Assembly (NCBI GenBank): GCA_024281055.1
Contig: JAMXLF010000087.1
Span: 1 to 64,000 of the forward strand
Direction: 5' to 3'
DNA: 64,000 bases
Source: Geobacteraceae bacterium
GTDB lineage: Bacteria > Desulfobacterota > Desulfuromonadia > Geobacterales > Geobacteraceae
The notes under the pieces are model-generated. The model worked only from the letters and a program-made list of their open reading frames with translations, searched no databases and had not been told where the DNA came from. Of the stretch, positions 47,924-52,562 are shown piece by piece. The first letter of the stretch is position 1, and every line of letters begins with the position of its first letter. The position numbers and the translations under genes are program-made.

Positions 47924-50900
47924 ATGTCAAGATTCAGGGCCTTGCTTTGTCAGGTAATGTTATGGACGGTAGTGGGTTGCATGCTCTCATGCCCAGCCTG
48001 GGGAGCGATGGACAAGGATCCGCGCCTCAGCGAGCTGGAACAAGGCTCCGGAACGAAGCTTCATTACTCCCGCAACGCCCGGACCGGTGCAGTCCGGTCC
48101 CTCTGGACCGAGCCCGGCCAGGCAATTCTCTCGCACGCAATAAGCCCCGGCTTGCCCCCCGAGGTTGCGGCGGCGATGACGCCGCAAACGGCGGCGATGA
48201 ATTTCATGGGAAAGTACGGCGCTCTCTTCGGCATAAAGAACCCTGACAGAGAACTTGCCGTGAAGCGCACGAAAGTGGCGGACCAGGGGCGGTCGTTCAT
48301 CAGACTCCAGCAACTCCACGAGGGATTGCCGGTCATCGGCGGCGAACTGGTGGTACAACTTGATGCCGACAACGGTGTCATGAGCGCGCATGGCAAGACG
48401 TCACCCGATGCGGCGCTCGACGCAGCGCCGAGAGTCAGTGCGGCGCAGGCCAAGGAAGCCGCCCTGAGGATCGTTGCCGGCCAGACAGGTGCCGACCCCG
48501 CGACCTTGTTTGCCACCGAACCCGAGTTGTCCGTGTATGACCCGGGACTGCTCGATCACCGGGAAGGATTCGCCAGGATACTGGTCTGGCGACTGGAGGT
48601 GAAAGCCGCGGGCTTGTCGCCGATCAACGAATTCGTCCTGATCGATGCAACAAACGGACGCCCTTCGCTGCATTTCAACCAGATTGCCGATGCAAAGAAC
48701 AGGACGATCTACGACAGCAACAACGTCAGGACCAGTGACAATGCCCTGCCCGGCACGGTGCCGGTACGGACCGAAGGGGGAGCGCCAAGCGGCATTGCCG
48801 ACGCCGACTTGGCCTACGACTATCTCGGTGATACCTACGATTTCTATTACAGCAATTTCGGGCGGGACAGCCTGGACGGACTGGGCCTTAATCTGGTTGC
48901 GACGGTCCGCTACTGCCCGAACGACTCCACTTCACCCTGTCCTTATACGAACGCATTCTGGAACGGTACGCAGATGGTATTCGGCCAGGGTTATGCGGCG
49001 GCAGACGATGTCGTGGGACACGAACTGACCCACGGCGTAACCCAGTACACGTCGGGGCTGTTCTACTACATGCAGTCGGGGGCCATCAGTGAATCCCTGT
49101 CCGATATCTTCGGGGAGTTCGTCGACCTTACCAACGGCAGAGGCACCGATACCGCCGCGTTACGCTGGAAGATGGGAGAAGACCTGCCCGGCGGAGCGGT
49201 CCGCGACATGAAGGACCCACCGTCCATGAGCACTATGTTCGGCCCCTATCCGGACCGGATGACGAGCGGCAATTTTTTCTGCGGCAGCTCCGACAACGGT
49301 GGAGTCCATATCAACAGCTCGGTCGGCAACAAGGCTGCCTACCTTATGACCGACGGGGGGACGTTCAACGGCAAGAATGTCACGGGCCTCGGGATCGCCA
49401 AGGCGGCGAAGATCTTTTACGAGGCGCAGGTTCATCTTATCACCTCCGCCAGCGACTATGCCGACCTCTACGACGACCTGATCCTCGCCTGCAATAACCT
49501 GACCGGCACGGCCGGCATCACTGCGGCCGACTGCCAGGAGGTGCAGAACGCGTTGGACGCCGTGGAAATGAACCGGCAGCCCACGTTCTGTGCGGCTCCC
49601 GAAGCTCCTCTCTGCCCGGCAGGGACAACGCCGGTCAATGTCTTTTTCGATAACCTCGAATCGGGGAGCGGTAACTGGAGCTTCGGAGCCTCTAGCGGCG
49701 GCAATCTCTGGACAATTGGAACCGGTTACGCCGAAAGCGGCAACCACTCCCTTTGGGGCCAGGACCTCGGCACTACGGCAGACTCTTATGCGGCCAACAA
49801 TACCACTATTGCCATTCCGGCGAACGCCTATCTCTATTTCAGGCACAGCTATGATTTCAAGAGGGCGGTGACAACCACACAGCAGGCAGTCAATCTGGAC
49901 GGCGGCGTGATCGAGTACAGCACGAACGGTGGCGCCACCTGGCTGGATGCCGGATCGCTGATACTCAACAACGGCTACTCGCAGACAATAACACCGGGAT
50001 TAAGCGGCGTCCCCAATCCCCTTGCCGGAAGGAATGCCTTCACGGGGAGCAGCAACGGCTACATGTCAACCCGGCTCAGCCTGGCGTCTCTGGCCGGGGC
50101 CGGTGCCCGCTTCCGGTTCCGCTACGGCACACGTGCCTTTTCGTACACGTCGTTGGGGTGGTTCGTTGACGATGTGCGCGTCTATACCTGCTCCGACACC
50201 GTTCCGCCGTCGGTCACCGTCACCGTACCGACTGACGGCGCGATCGGCATTCCGGTCAACAGTAAAGTAACGGCAACCTTTACCGAGGCGATGAATGCCG
50301 GGACGATCACCGGCACGACGTTCACCGTCATCAACAGGAACACCGGTGGTGCCGTTGCCGGCGTTGTCACCTACAATGCGTCGACCTTGACTGCGACGTT
50401 CTCCCCTTCGGCAAACCTGTCCCCGGACACCCCTTACCTGGCAACGGTCACCATCGGCGCGACTGACACGACGGGGCATGCGCTGGCGTCAGCCAAGACC
50501 TGGCGGTTCAGGACGTCCGCCGGGACCGACGTCGCGGCGCCGACGGTCACGAGCCGGTCGCCGGCCGCCTCCGCCACCGGGGTGTCGCTGACAACACCGG
50601 TCATCGCCTGTTTCAGCAAGGCTATGGACGCCTTATCGATAAGTGCCGCAACCTTCATCCTGAGTAACGGCGTTACCGGCACGGTGAACTACAATGCAGT
50701 CACGAACTGCGCCGTCTTCACCCCCTCGGCGAGTCTGGCGCCGTCCACCACGTATACCGCCACCATCACCGCCGGTGTGAAGGATGCAGCGGGGAACGCC
50801 TTTGCCGGTACAACTTGGAGCTTCACCACCACTGCCAGCGGAGCGCCGGCTGAGGCTGTTTACAACGGCGGCTTTGAAATAGACGGCACGTACGTGCTCG

Positions 50901-52162
50901 GTTGGTACGGGTACAGCAGTGCCGGAGCTGCTCTTTTCAGCAAGACTCCGGGGGCCGGCCATAACGGCTCCAGCATCTACGGATACCTCGGCAAGACGGA
51001 CAGTACGCTCGAATACATCTTCCAGCCGATTACGATCCCTGCCGATGCGACCGCGGCTTACGCGCAGTTCTGGTACAGAATATCCACCAGTGAATACCCG
51101 AACATAACCCCTTACGATTATCTCTATGCCGTCATCACGGATGCCGACGGCCTGCCCCTGAAGACACTCGCTACGAAATCCAACCTGGACGCATCGTCAA
51201 CGTGGCTGCAGAGCGCGCAGTATGACCTGAAGGAATTCAGGGGGAGAACGGTCAACGTTCAGTTTTTTGCCATAAACGACAGCTCAGCTCCCACCACGTT
51301 CCTGATCGACGACGTCTCGGTCATGGTGACCACCCCTCCGGCCGACGCTGCCGCGCCCGCGGTGGTGGCGACCGGGCCGGTGGCCGGCGTCTCAGGTGTG
51401 CCCGCCGGCGGCAGAATCGGCGCCACCTTCAGTGAGGCGATGGATGCCGCGACGTTGACGAACGCGACATTCACCCTGAACAACGGGGGCACCGGCACGG
51501 TCGGCTATGACAAAGCGACCTGTACCGCCATCCTGACCCCGTCGGCAAGCCTGGCCCCGAACACTGCTTATACGGCAACCATCACCAACGGGGCAAAGGA
51601 CCTGAAAGGCAATCCCTTGCCGACCAAGACCTGGAGCTTCACGACATCAGCGCTGACTCAGGTTGTTTCCGTAACCATAACAGGCACCGGCGCCGGCACC
51701 GTGAATAGCGACCCGGCAGGGATTGCCTGTGGTTCAGGGTCCTGCTCGGCTCCCTTCTACTACGATACGCAGGCGACCCTTCTGGCAACTCCGTCCGCCG
51801 GCTCGGTCTTTGCCGGCTGGACAGGCGCCTGTACCGGCAGCGTTTCCGATTGCAGTACGACCATGGATAGCAACAAGACGGTTAGTGCCAACTTCACCAC
51901 ATGCCCGCCCGTGCGCATCGCCGGCACGACGCCCGCTTACTACCCGTCGCTGCACGATGCGTATGCCGCCGCAGCGGGGGGGAGTGTCATCCAGGCCGAA
52001 GCGATCAATTTCATTGAGAGCCTCGCTCTTAACCGTGCCATCGCCTTTACCCTGCAGGGGGGATTCGACAGCGCCTTCAGCACCCGGGCGGGAAACACCA
52101 CTCTTCAAGGCCTGACCATCCAGAGCGGCTCCGTTACCATCGACGGGGTGACGATCCACTGA
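47924..52162 (+). CDS. Secreted M4 (thermolysin-type) metalloprotease with repeats
   Basis: A 1412-residue exported protease. Signal peptide (about 1-28) and FTP/PepSY-type propeptide (to about 250) lead to the thermolysin domain: HELTH at 366-370, E390 in GAISE, and DNGGVHINSSVGNKAAYL with H462, all catalytic. Then follow a jelly-roll region (about 560-760), two Ig-like (Big_5) repeats (about 760-965), a second jelly-roll-like region (about 970-1130), a third Ig-like repeat, a bacterial repeat (GWTGAC...) and the terminal PPVRIAGTTPAYY module. The last module and the terminator after it are shared with the next gene. AGGAGGAG precedes the ATG. A secreted or surface role in protein degradation is likely. 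Confidence 0.93.
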   Translation: MSRFRALLCQVMLWTVVGCMLSCPAWGAMDKDPRLSELEQGSGTKLHYSRNARTGAVRSLWTEPGQAILSHAISPGLPPEVAAAMTPQTAAMNFMGKYGALFGIKNPDRELAVKRTKVADQGRSFIRLQQLHEGLPVIGGELVVQLDADNGVMSAHGKTSPDAALDAAPRVSAAQAKEAALRIVAGQTGADPATLFATEPELSVYDPGLLDHREGFARILVWRLEVKAAGLSPINEFVLIDATNGRPSLHFNQIADAKNRTIYDSNNVRTSDNALPGTVPVRTEGGAPSGIADADLAYDYLGDTYDFYYSNFGRDSLDGLGLNLVATVRYCPNDSTSPCPYTNAFWNGTQMVFGQGYAAADDVVGHELTHGVTQYTSGLFYYMQSGAISESLSDIFGEFVDLTNGRGTDTAALRWKMGEDLPGGAVRDMKDPPSMSTMFGPYPDRMTSGNFFCGSSDNGGVHINSSVGNKAAYLMTDGGTFNGKNVTGLGIAKAAKIFYEAQVHLITSASDYADLYDDLILACNNLTGTAGITAADCQEVQNALDAVEMNRQPTFCAAPEAPLCPAGTTPVNVFFDNLESGSGNWSFGASSGGNLWTIGTGYAESGNHSLWGQDLGTTADSYAANNTTIAIPANAYLYFRHSYDFKRAVTTTQQAVNLDGGVIEYSTNGGATWLDAGSLILNNGYSQTITPGLSGVPNPLAGRNAFTGSSNGYMSTRLSLASLAGAGARFRFRYGTRAFSYTSLGWFVDDVRVYTCSDTVPPSVTVTVPTDGAIGIPVNSKVTATFTEAMNAGTITGTTFTVINRNTGGAVAGVVTYNASTLTATFSPSANLSPDTPYLATVTIGATDTTGHALASAKTWRFRTSAGTDVAAPTVTSRSPAASATGVSLTTPVIACFSKAMDALSISAATFILSNGVTGTVNYNAVTNCAVFTPSASLAPSTTYTATITAGVKDAAGNAFAGTTWSFTTTASGAPAEAVYNGGFEIDGTYVLGWYGYSSAGAALFSKTPGAGHNGSSIYGYLGKTDSTLEYIFQPITIPADATAAYAQFWYRISTSEYPNITPYDYLYAVITDADGLPLKTLATKSNLDASSTWLQSAQYDLKEFRGRTVNVQFFAINDSSAPTTFLIDDVSVMVTTPPADAAAPAVVATGPVAGVSGVPAGGRIGATFSEAMDAATLTNATFTLNNGGTGTVGYDKATCTAILTPSASLAPNTAYTATITNGAKDLKGNPLPTKTWSFTTSALTQVVSVTITGTGAGTVNSDPAGIACGSGSCSAPFYYDTQATLLATPSAGSVFAGWTGACTGSVSDCSTTMDSNKTVSANFTTCPPVRIAGTTPAYYPSLHDAYAAAAGGSVIQAEAINFIESLALNRAIAFTLQGGFDSAFSTRAGNTTLQGLTIQSGSVTIDGVTIH

Positions 52163-52184: not shown

Positions 52185-52216
52185 AACGGGGTGAGGCGTC
52201 TCACCCCGTTTTTTTT
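52185..52216 (+). terminator. Terminator of the M4 protease gene
   Basis: AACGGGGTGAG / CTCACCCCGTT 11-bp stem, loop GCGT, followed by a T-run. Nearly the same hairpin ends the subtilase gene (55957-55985). Confidence 0.9.
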
Positions 52217-52294: not shown

Positions 52295-52323
52295 TTGACA
52301 AGTGATTTTTTAAAACATAGTAT
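52295..52323 (+). promoter_or_regulatory. Promoter of the subtilase transcript
   Basis: TTGACA and TAGTAT with a 17-nt spacer in AT-rich DNA, about 37 nt before the riboswitch aptamer. Confidence 0.6.
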
Positions 52324-52359
52324 TACTCAATAAATTTCACGCCAGAAACAGCAGTGATT

Positions 52360-52443
52360 TTCCGATAAGAGCAAACCCGGGGTAACCCGGGGACGCAGAG
52401 CCACGGGTCCGCAACGGAGCGGACAGCCGGGTCGCCGAAGAAA
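52360..52443 (+). promoter_or_regulatory. GEMM-I riboswitch, A20 form (cyclic AMP-GMP type)
   Basis: The aptamer signatures of the GEMM-I class are present in order: GCAAACC (52371), a stem CCCGGG-GTAA-CCCGGG with a GNRA loop, GGGACGCAGAGCCACGGG with the tetraloop receptor, a second stem GTCCGC...GCGGAC and the closing AGCCGGGTCGCCGA. The base right before GCAAACC (position 20 in Vc2 numbering, 52370) is A instead of the G of c-di-GMP riboswitches. In published work A20 marks the GEMM-Ib subclass of Geobacter, which prefers 3',3'-cyclic AMP-GMP. The ligand here is inferred from that base. Confidence 0.88.
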
Positions 52444-52457
52444 GTTCCTGGTCTGAG

Positions 52458-52488
52458 CCCCCGCTTCAGTACCGAGGCGGGGGTTTTT
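52458..52488 (+). terminator. Expression-platform terminator of the riboswitch
   Basis: CCCCCGCTTC / GAGGCGGGGG 10-bp stem with loop AGTACC and five T, 15 nt after the aptamer. It lies about 75 nt before the subtilase gene, so ligand binding would control readthrough. Confidence 0.85.
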
Positions 52489-52562
52489 GTATTTGTGATG
52501 ACACGGGCTATGACAAATCGGTTCGCAGTCATTTGTATGTAGAAATCGAGGGGGGGCGGATT

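Follow-up and report, generated by a model that had tools for sequence, protein, structure and literature searches.

In G. sulfurreducens, deletion of gacA is reported to lower all genes that lie behind GEMM-Ib riboswitches, which marks these as ON switches (PMC6456294), and the pilM riboswitch is described as an ON switch in which aptamer and terminator are mutually exclusive (PMC9262584). The key recognition bases of the aptamer were given as G20, C92, A47 and A48, with position 20 in contact with the ligand (PMC3764141). A molecular dynamics study of a cGAMP (cyclic AMP-GMP) aptamer lists A42 among the ligand contacts (PMC6274999), and in our own alignment this base falls at position 48. 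Control of a secreted protease is reported from C. difficile, where PPEP-1, an enzyme that releases adhesins, is under a class I c-di-GMP riboswitch of the OFF type (PMC11477304). Finally, an aptamer from Desulfobacca acetoxidans is highly similar to neighbouring c-di-GMP-I aptamers apart from one key pocket change, with which it gained cGAMP affinity while c-di-GMP binding was kept (PMC9481103). The change lies at position 20 by our reading, and the aptamer belongs to tandem logic gates with AdoCbl riboswitches (PMC9481103).

The RNA described here comes from a Geobacteraceae bacterium and lies within a stretch of 64,000 nucleotides, the whole of which is called the window. An earlier note on this DNA had claimed a GEMM-I aptamer with a terminator platform at 52360-52488, and the covariance-model search bears out the aptamer. 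The RF01051 profile scores 65.4 bits against a gathering score of 35, with a match at 52360-52439 that spans model positions 1-87, the full length of the model. When the whole window was compared with Rfam by cmscan, the single match above its gathering score was to RF03167, c-di-GMP-I-GGC (52361-52440, + strand; 62.4 bits, gathering 59, E 2.5e-12). The coordinates given by the note are right overall, but P1 begins about 4 bases earlier on its 5' side, so that the aptamer extends over 52356-52446 (+). The A that it saw in front of GCAAACC is indeed in place, and so is the terminator platform, with 13 pairs and -24.1 kcal/mol, beginning 15 bases past the aptamer end. The features are collected in Table 1.

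Table 1. Features of the riboswitch locus, by window position. Bases 20, 47, 48 and 92 follow V. cholerae numbering.
Feature	Position	Strand	Remarks
Terminator-like hairpin and T run past the upstream gene	52185..52216	+	seen by eye; missing from the output of the terminator scan
Sigma-70-type promoter-like site, TTGACA-17-TAGTAT	52295..52323	+	consensus match only; expected start near 52330
P1 helix, 5' strand	52356..52364	+	pairs with 52436-52446
A20	52370	+	contacts the alpha base of the ligand; directly 5' of GCAAACC
P2 helix	52371..52396	+	GUAA tetraloop 52382-52385; G21-C46 pair
A47 and G48	52397..52398	+	G48 (52398) is the variant base of the subgroup
P3 helix	52400..52432	+	covariance-model match, fold, covariation
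C92 (52435) and P1 3' strand	52435..52446	+	candidate antiterminator strand in the subgroup
Intrinsic terminator, separate from the aptamer	52455..52488	+	hairpin 52455-52486, T run to 52488
Subtilase, 1123 aa	52563..55934	+	Peptidase_S8 (PF00082) at aa 194-502, E 1.4e-38

P1 of the window copy has 9 pairs, three of the outer ones being weak. In an alignment of 42 A20/G48 elements, made up of 37 of the 38 found by the pattern scan described below and 5 from the bacterium's own genome, the window's included, changes on both sides of a pair were seen at 19 of the 25 named pairs and 18 of the 24 predicted pairs (5 of the 8 counted in P1). Pairing cells came to 92.1%; shuffled alignments gave 78.0%, and sliding the partners gave no more than 47.9%. 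Since pairs change on both sides and pairing is above that of the shuffled and slid controls, the fold is not a product of chance, and the window RNA is confirmed as a GEMM-I riboswitch of a variant type. Around it, the scan for promoter-like sites found 1 where 0.4 were expected from shuffles, and the terminator scan found 2 sites against 0.7, the second being the P2 hairpin read on the minus strand. The hairpin past the upstream gene would, by eye, separate the two transcripts. The G-rich ribosome-binding region of the subtilase gene (52549-52562) resembles the 3' arm of the terminator and could pair with its 5' arm, also as judged by eye.

The host genome (4.44 Mb in 103 contigs) has 41 GEMM-I matches, 40 of them above the cut-off. 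These comprise 24 ordinary GEMM-Ib elements (A20, C21-U22, A48), 11 with G20 (for C31:25845, C72 and C43 this base was set by eye from the AAACC alignment), 5 with A20, G21-C22 and G48, and 1 degenerate element. The five are the window's own, C90:39267, C19:46748, C77:25341 and C54:553. Besides the subtilase, they stand before a giant Kelch protein that shares its C-terminal module, a small secreted protein with a DUF11 protein next in line, a FlgT/CsgG-like protein and a sigma-factor-like protein. Among the targets of the GEMM-Ib elements are PilM, a multihaem cytochrome, outer-membrane barrels, an L,D-transpeptidase and an NlpC/P60 protein. The terminator overlaps the aptamer in 22 of the 24 GEMM-Ib elements, starting 14-21 bases before the aptamer end, and is separate in all 5 A20/G48 elements, starting 15-56 bases past it. 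For these counts it should be kept in mind that the terminator finder returned none for 4 of the 41 host elements (C26:76820, C70, C72, C31:12815) and that its pick for C29:17617 is the hairpin of a neighbour.

With the Geobacter GEMM-Ib riboswitches of pgcA and pilM, the window element shares the GEMM-I fold, A20, A47, C92, a GacA-like enzyme in the host and terminator-based transcriptional control. However, it has G48 and not A48, a G21-C46 and not a C21-G46 pair, a subtilase as its target, and a separate terminator where theirs is built from the 3' strand of the aptamer. The same contrast is found at home, as its core of G21, C22, C46 and G48 stands against C21-U22/G46 and A48 in the 24 host GEMM-Ib elements. 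The assignment to GEMM-Ib proposed in the earlier note thus keeps A20 on its side, but is at odds with G48, the G21-C46 core and the lack of the usual terminator overlap. Membership of ordinary GEMM-Ib was rejected on the core bases and the platform, and because the pocket also has G48, at a second ligand-contact position. The c-di-GMP-I-GGC label was rejected as well. RF03167 is the best-ranked family in cmscan and its name presumably refers to consensus bases that include G20 and G47, but the alignment shows A at both places, with G48 next to the second. Since the bases of the model are absent, we take the label to express overall similarity only, and it should not serve to infer the ligand.

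Two further host loci are of note. One (G000:C26:76341-76910) has three GEMM-I elements in tandem, two GEMM-Ib with A20 and then one of the G20 type, in front of a secreted protein that runs off the contig after 523 aa and begins much like the fn3/InlB-repeat protein behind the G20 aptamer on C70; it is possible that this tandem acts as a two-signal gate. At the other (G000:C24:25710-25786), a GEMM-Ib backbone with G20 and an overlapping terminator precedes a fibronectin-type lipoprotein-like gene and, judged by base 20, should sense c-di-GMP with an ON platform.

To see how bases 20 and 48 go together in relatives, 192 rows were read, 42 from 141 genomes of the order and 150 among the matches listed from 277 genomes of the class. 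Among the matches listed, G20/A48 occurs in 73 rows, A20/A48 in 70, A20/G48 in 44 and G20/G48 in 0, or 57, 61, 41 and 0 when counted as distinct sequences; as many of the neighbouring bases were set in the pattern used for searching, other backbones lie outside this sample. The minor classes, again among the matches listed, are C20/A48 (3), A20/C48 (1) and T20/G48 (1), the last being a lone row with P2 unpaired that is probably there by chance. G48 is therefore all but confined to A20 in the rows read, being present, among the matches listed, in 44 of the 115 rows with A20 and in 0 of the 73 with G20; the Fisher p of 8e-12 overstates this and is indicative only, because the rows share ancestry. 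Among the same matches G48 goes with G19 in 33 rows and with T19 in 11, and A20/G48 is found together with G20/A48 in 13 genomes and with A20/A48 in 14.

When GTDB genomes were scanned for a strict A20/G48 pattern, 38 elements turned up at 36 loci, and a GEMM-I match was present in all 19 of the 36 loci that were submitted. The records, which are metagenome bins in which stray contigs are possible, are titled Desulfuromonadales or Desulfuromonas (24), Deltaproteobacteria (7), Geobacter (1), Nitrospirota or Nitrospirae (2), Ca. Eisenbacteria (1) and Longimicrobiaceae (1). Surface, adhesin or export-type Pfam domains (DUF11, DUF7933, PATR, cadherin, YadA head, GEVED, bacterial Ig, ShlB and chitobiase C-terminal) were found in 14 of 27 downstream proteins, a count that covers targets of A20/G48 elements only. 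The remaining 13 comprise 4 with other known domains (TonB receptor, rotamase, ankyrin, cytochrome c), 2 with weak matches and 7 with none; the genes were chosen by an ORF script, and the long proteins of the 36-locus set were scanned over their first 900 residues. A limited search of the literature found no published naming of an A20/G48 subclass. The more interesting result is this group: in the rows listed a G48 pocket is seen only with A20, and it comes with a separate terminator and many surface-protein targets.

What would such a pocket bind? The earlier note had taken A20 as an indication of cyclic AMP-GMP rather than c-di-GMP. Two host GGDEF-type proteins carry the motif GHLVGS, which we take to fall at the Hypr serine place. 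One is a receiver protein in which GGDEY replaces GGDEF (G000:C95:2553-3011) and the other has an N-terminal region that matches GAF-type domains (G000:C8:68037-68507). Both find their best PDB match in 6d9m (E 1.1e-71 and E 1.3e-47, respectively), an entry whose description fits the GacA-type construct of PMC6456294. As the host encodes GacA-like enzymes with GHLVGS and with 6d9m as the closest structure, it probably makes cGAMP, which is a plausible ligand. This favours the earlier reading, but the Desulfobacca precedent tells against drawing it from A20 alone, because a similarly altered pocket there still bound c-di-GMP (PMC9481103). In the ligand's alpha position, adenine may be tolerated by the 2-amino group of G48 and guanine not, and a clash with an alpha guanine would favour cGAMP and disfavour c-di-GMP. 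We consider it likely, from these sequence features, that the window aptamer prefers 3',3'-cGAMP. It might instead bind c-di-GMP or both dinucleotides and so report c-di-GMP, as would be in keeping with its G21-C46 backbone, which is that of the G20 relatives, with the similar change in Desulfobacca and with the omcST switch of G. sulfurreducens, reported to respond to both (PMC9481103; PMC6456294). We regard this as unlikely, the absence of G48 from the 73 G20 rows among the matches listed being odd for a c-di-GMP pocket. Still less probable, and indeed only faintly so, is a shift to another ligand such as a different cyclic dinucleotide: two of the four key recognition positions (20 and 48; PMC3764141) differ from c-di-GMP aptamers and 14 genomes among the matches listed hold both A20/G48 and A20/A48 elements, but A47 and C92 are unchanged and the host has a GacA-like enzyme.

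The direction of the switch was approached through the terminator. In GEMM-Ib, overlap of aptamer and terminator makes them mutually exclusive and the switch ON, a wiring not to be assumed for the window element since its terminator lies outside the aptamer. In the wider set, among elements with a detected terminator, it is separate in 29 of 34 A20/G48 (with doubtful picks at L150, L168, L171 and L178 of the 36-locus set), 20 of 22 A20/A48 and 25 of 25 G20/A48 elements. As both A48 classes have it too, a separate terminator goes with the backbone and not with G48. The arrangement resembles the c-di-GMP-I OFF switches of C. difficile (Cd1, PPEP-1), where aptamer and terminator can coexist and where, as is likely at the level of the subgroup here, the 3' strand of P1 is the antiterminator partner; the PPEP-1 switch further shares a secreted protease as its target. 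The window element differs from these in its A20/G48 pocket, its probable cGAMP ligand, its subtilase in place of a metalloprotease, and its phylum. In complementarity to the 5' arm and loop of the terminator, the 3' strand of P1, CCGAAGAG, is among the best tenth of sequence windows for 13 of 29 A20/G48 elements, and equally ranked pairing is seen in 9 of 20 A20/A48 and 8 of 25 G20/A48 elements. A shuffle test is weaker for the group than this window-ranking test, with 7 of 26 relatives passing at p 0.05 (window element, p 0.025). Such complementarity suggests an OFF layout for the variant group, in which the ligand would hold P1 and release the terminator.

In the window copy this pairing is ordinary (percentile 0.62, dG -7.1), which makes OFF no more than a probable direction for it; in the sister elements C77:25341 and C90:39267 the pairing is clearer. 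The terminator of the window copy is compatible with the folded aptamer, as in Cd1-type switches, and its arm pairs best with the P3 region (dG -13.6). In the free fold of the transcript to 52467, 52457-52460 and 52463-52466 (8 arm bases) pair with 52398-52408, which would exclude P3. This fold reaches -45.7 kcal/mol, as against -45.1 with the aptamer imposed, a difference of 0.6, and once the transcript reaches 52480 both computed states contain the terminator. A clear antiterminator was sought by folding, shuffle and window-ranking tests, and none was convincing. In the proposed mechanism, the GacA-like enzyme would make 3',3'-cGAMP to be sensed by the window riboswitch, and binding would keep P1 and P3 together; without ligand, the strands of P1 and P3 would become available to the terminator's 5' arm, which lies downstream of the aptamer, and could pair with it. 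High ligand would then lead to termination (OFF) and low ligand to expression of the protease, as for PPEP-1 in C. difficile.

The evidence from the group leans towards OFF, and the direction of the window switch is probably opposite to that of the ordinary Geobacter cGAMP switches. The same riboswitch and ligand could act as an ON switch if termination were prevented by a route invisible to simple folding, a reading that is unlikely but the strongest of the rivals. The known Geobacter switches are ON (PMC6456294; pilM, PMC9262584), the antiterminator of the window copy is weak, and the aptamer fold lies within about 1.5 kcal/mol of one with an anti-aptamer hairpin (52426-52452), but the pilM type needs mutual exclusion and the arms of the window terminator are outside the aptamer. 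It could also be that the switch has decayed, with the aptamer kept and the terminator almost constitutive. A terminator as strong as -24.1 kcal/mol, present in both computed states, and the sister elements' antiterminator, not evident here, would fit this, whereas P1, P2 and P3 are all able to form and the pocket bases match the subgroup; we rate decay as rather improbable and nonetheless a real possibility. OFF is likelier than ON for the window copy, and to the whole reading of an A20/G48 transcriptional switch that prefers cGAMP, is OFF and controls a secreted subtilase we give a probability of about 0.48.

The subtilase itself agrees with the secreted subtilase claimed by the earlier note, given its Peptidase_S8 match (Table 1), its D/H/S motifs (DTGID, HGT, GTSAACP) and its signal-peptide-like N-terminus, the last two seen by eye. 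Its start was picked by a ribosome-binding-like sequence, the ORF list having a TTG start at 52533. The C-terminal module is common to other large proteins. It consists of an InlB-B-like repeat and about 90 residues without a Pfam match, and it recurs in the genome (contigs C49, C79, C62, C58, C54, C98, C83 and C39) and in the family; the module-bearing Kelch giant on C54 also sits behind an A20/G48 riboswitch. The upstream neighbour (47924-52162) encodes 1412 aa of a thermolysin-like M4 metalloprotease, and over its final 166 residues it has 64% identity with the module of the subtilase, so two adjoining, unrelated proteases have one C-terminal module in common. Five loci in five family genomes (G003, G030, G034, G036, G047) combine an S8 region of 27-30% identity with a module of 33-55%. 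A GEMM-I match was found in 0 of 15 upstream regions of family subtilases, these five loci included and two regions being partial as the contig ends there, and a peptidase domain in 0 of the 27 other A20/G48 downstream proteins scanned. Conserved riboswitch control of subtilases was therefore rejected, and the present case is a single one on these data. The earlier view of the protease as an unusual target holds in that related subtilases go without the riboswitch, but PPEP-1 is a precedent (PMC11477304); the subtilase is an unusual, not an unprecedented, kind of GEMM-I target.

The GEMM-I fold, A20 cGAMP switches and GEMM-I in front of a secreted protease were already known, and what is new here is the A20/G48 variant. 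For prediction, it is a warning that ligand and direction cannot be read from base 20 alone. It is possible, if doubtful at present, that A20/G48 elements form a separate GEMM-I subclass, strictly cGAMP-selective because G48 would keep out an alpha guanine, and OFF for giant surface proteins and the secreted protease, with the ordinary GEMM-Ib switches of the same cell being ON for cytochrome and pilus genes. If this is true, ligand prediction from sequence would have to consult base 48 as a further specificity position beside base 20. Several amino acids are reported to raise cGAMP in G. sulfurreducens (PMC8835794), so amino-acid feedback on the secreted protease is a testable idea. A rise in cGAMP would, if the proposition holds, bring the electron-transfer surface up and shut a second surface-protein programme, and should A20/G48 elements respond to cGAMP in the reverse direction, a single messenger would split the surface proteins of the cell into two opposed programmes.
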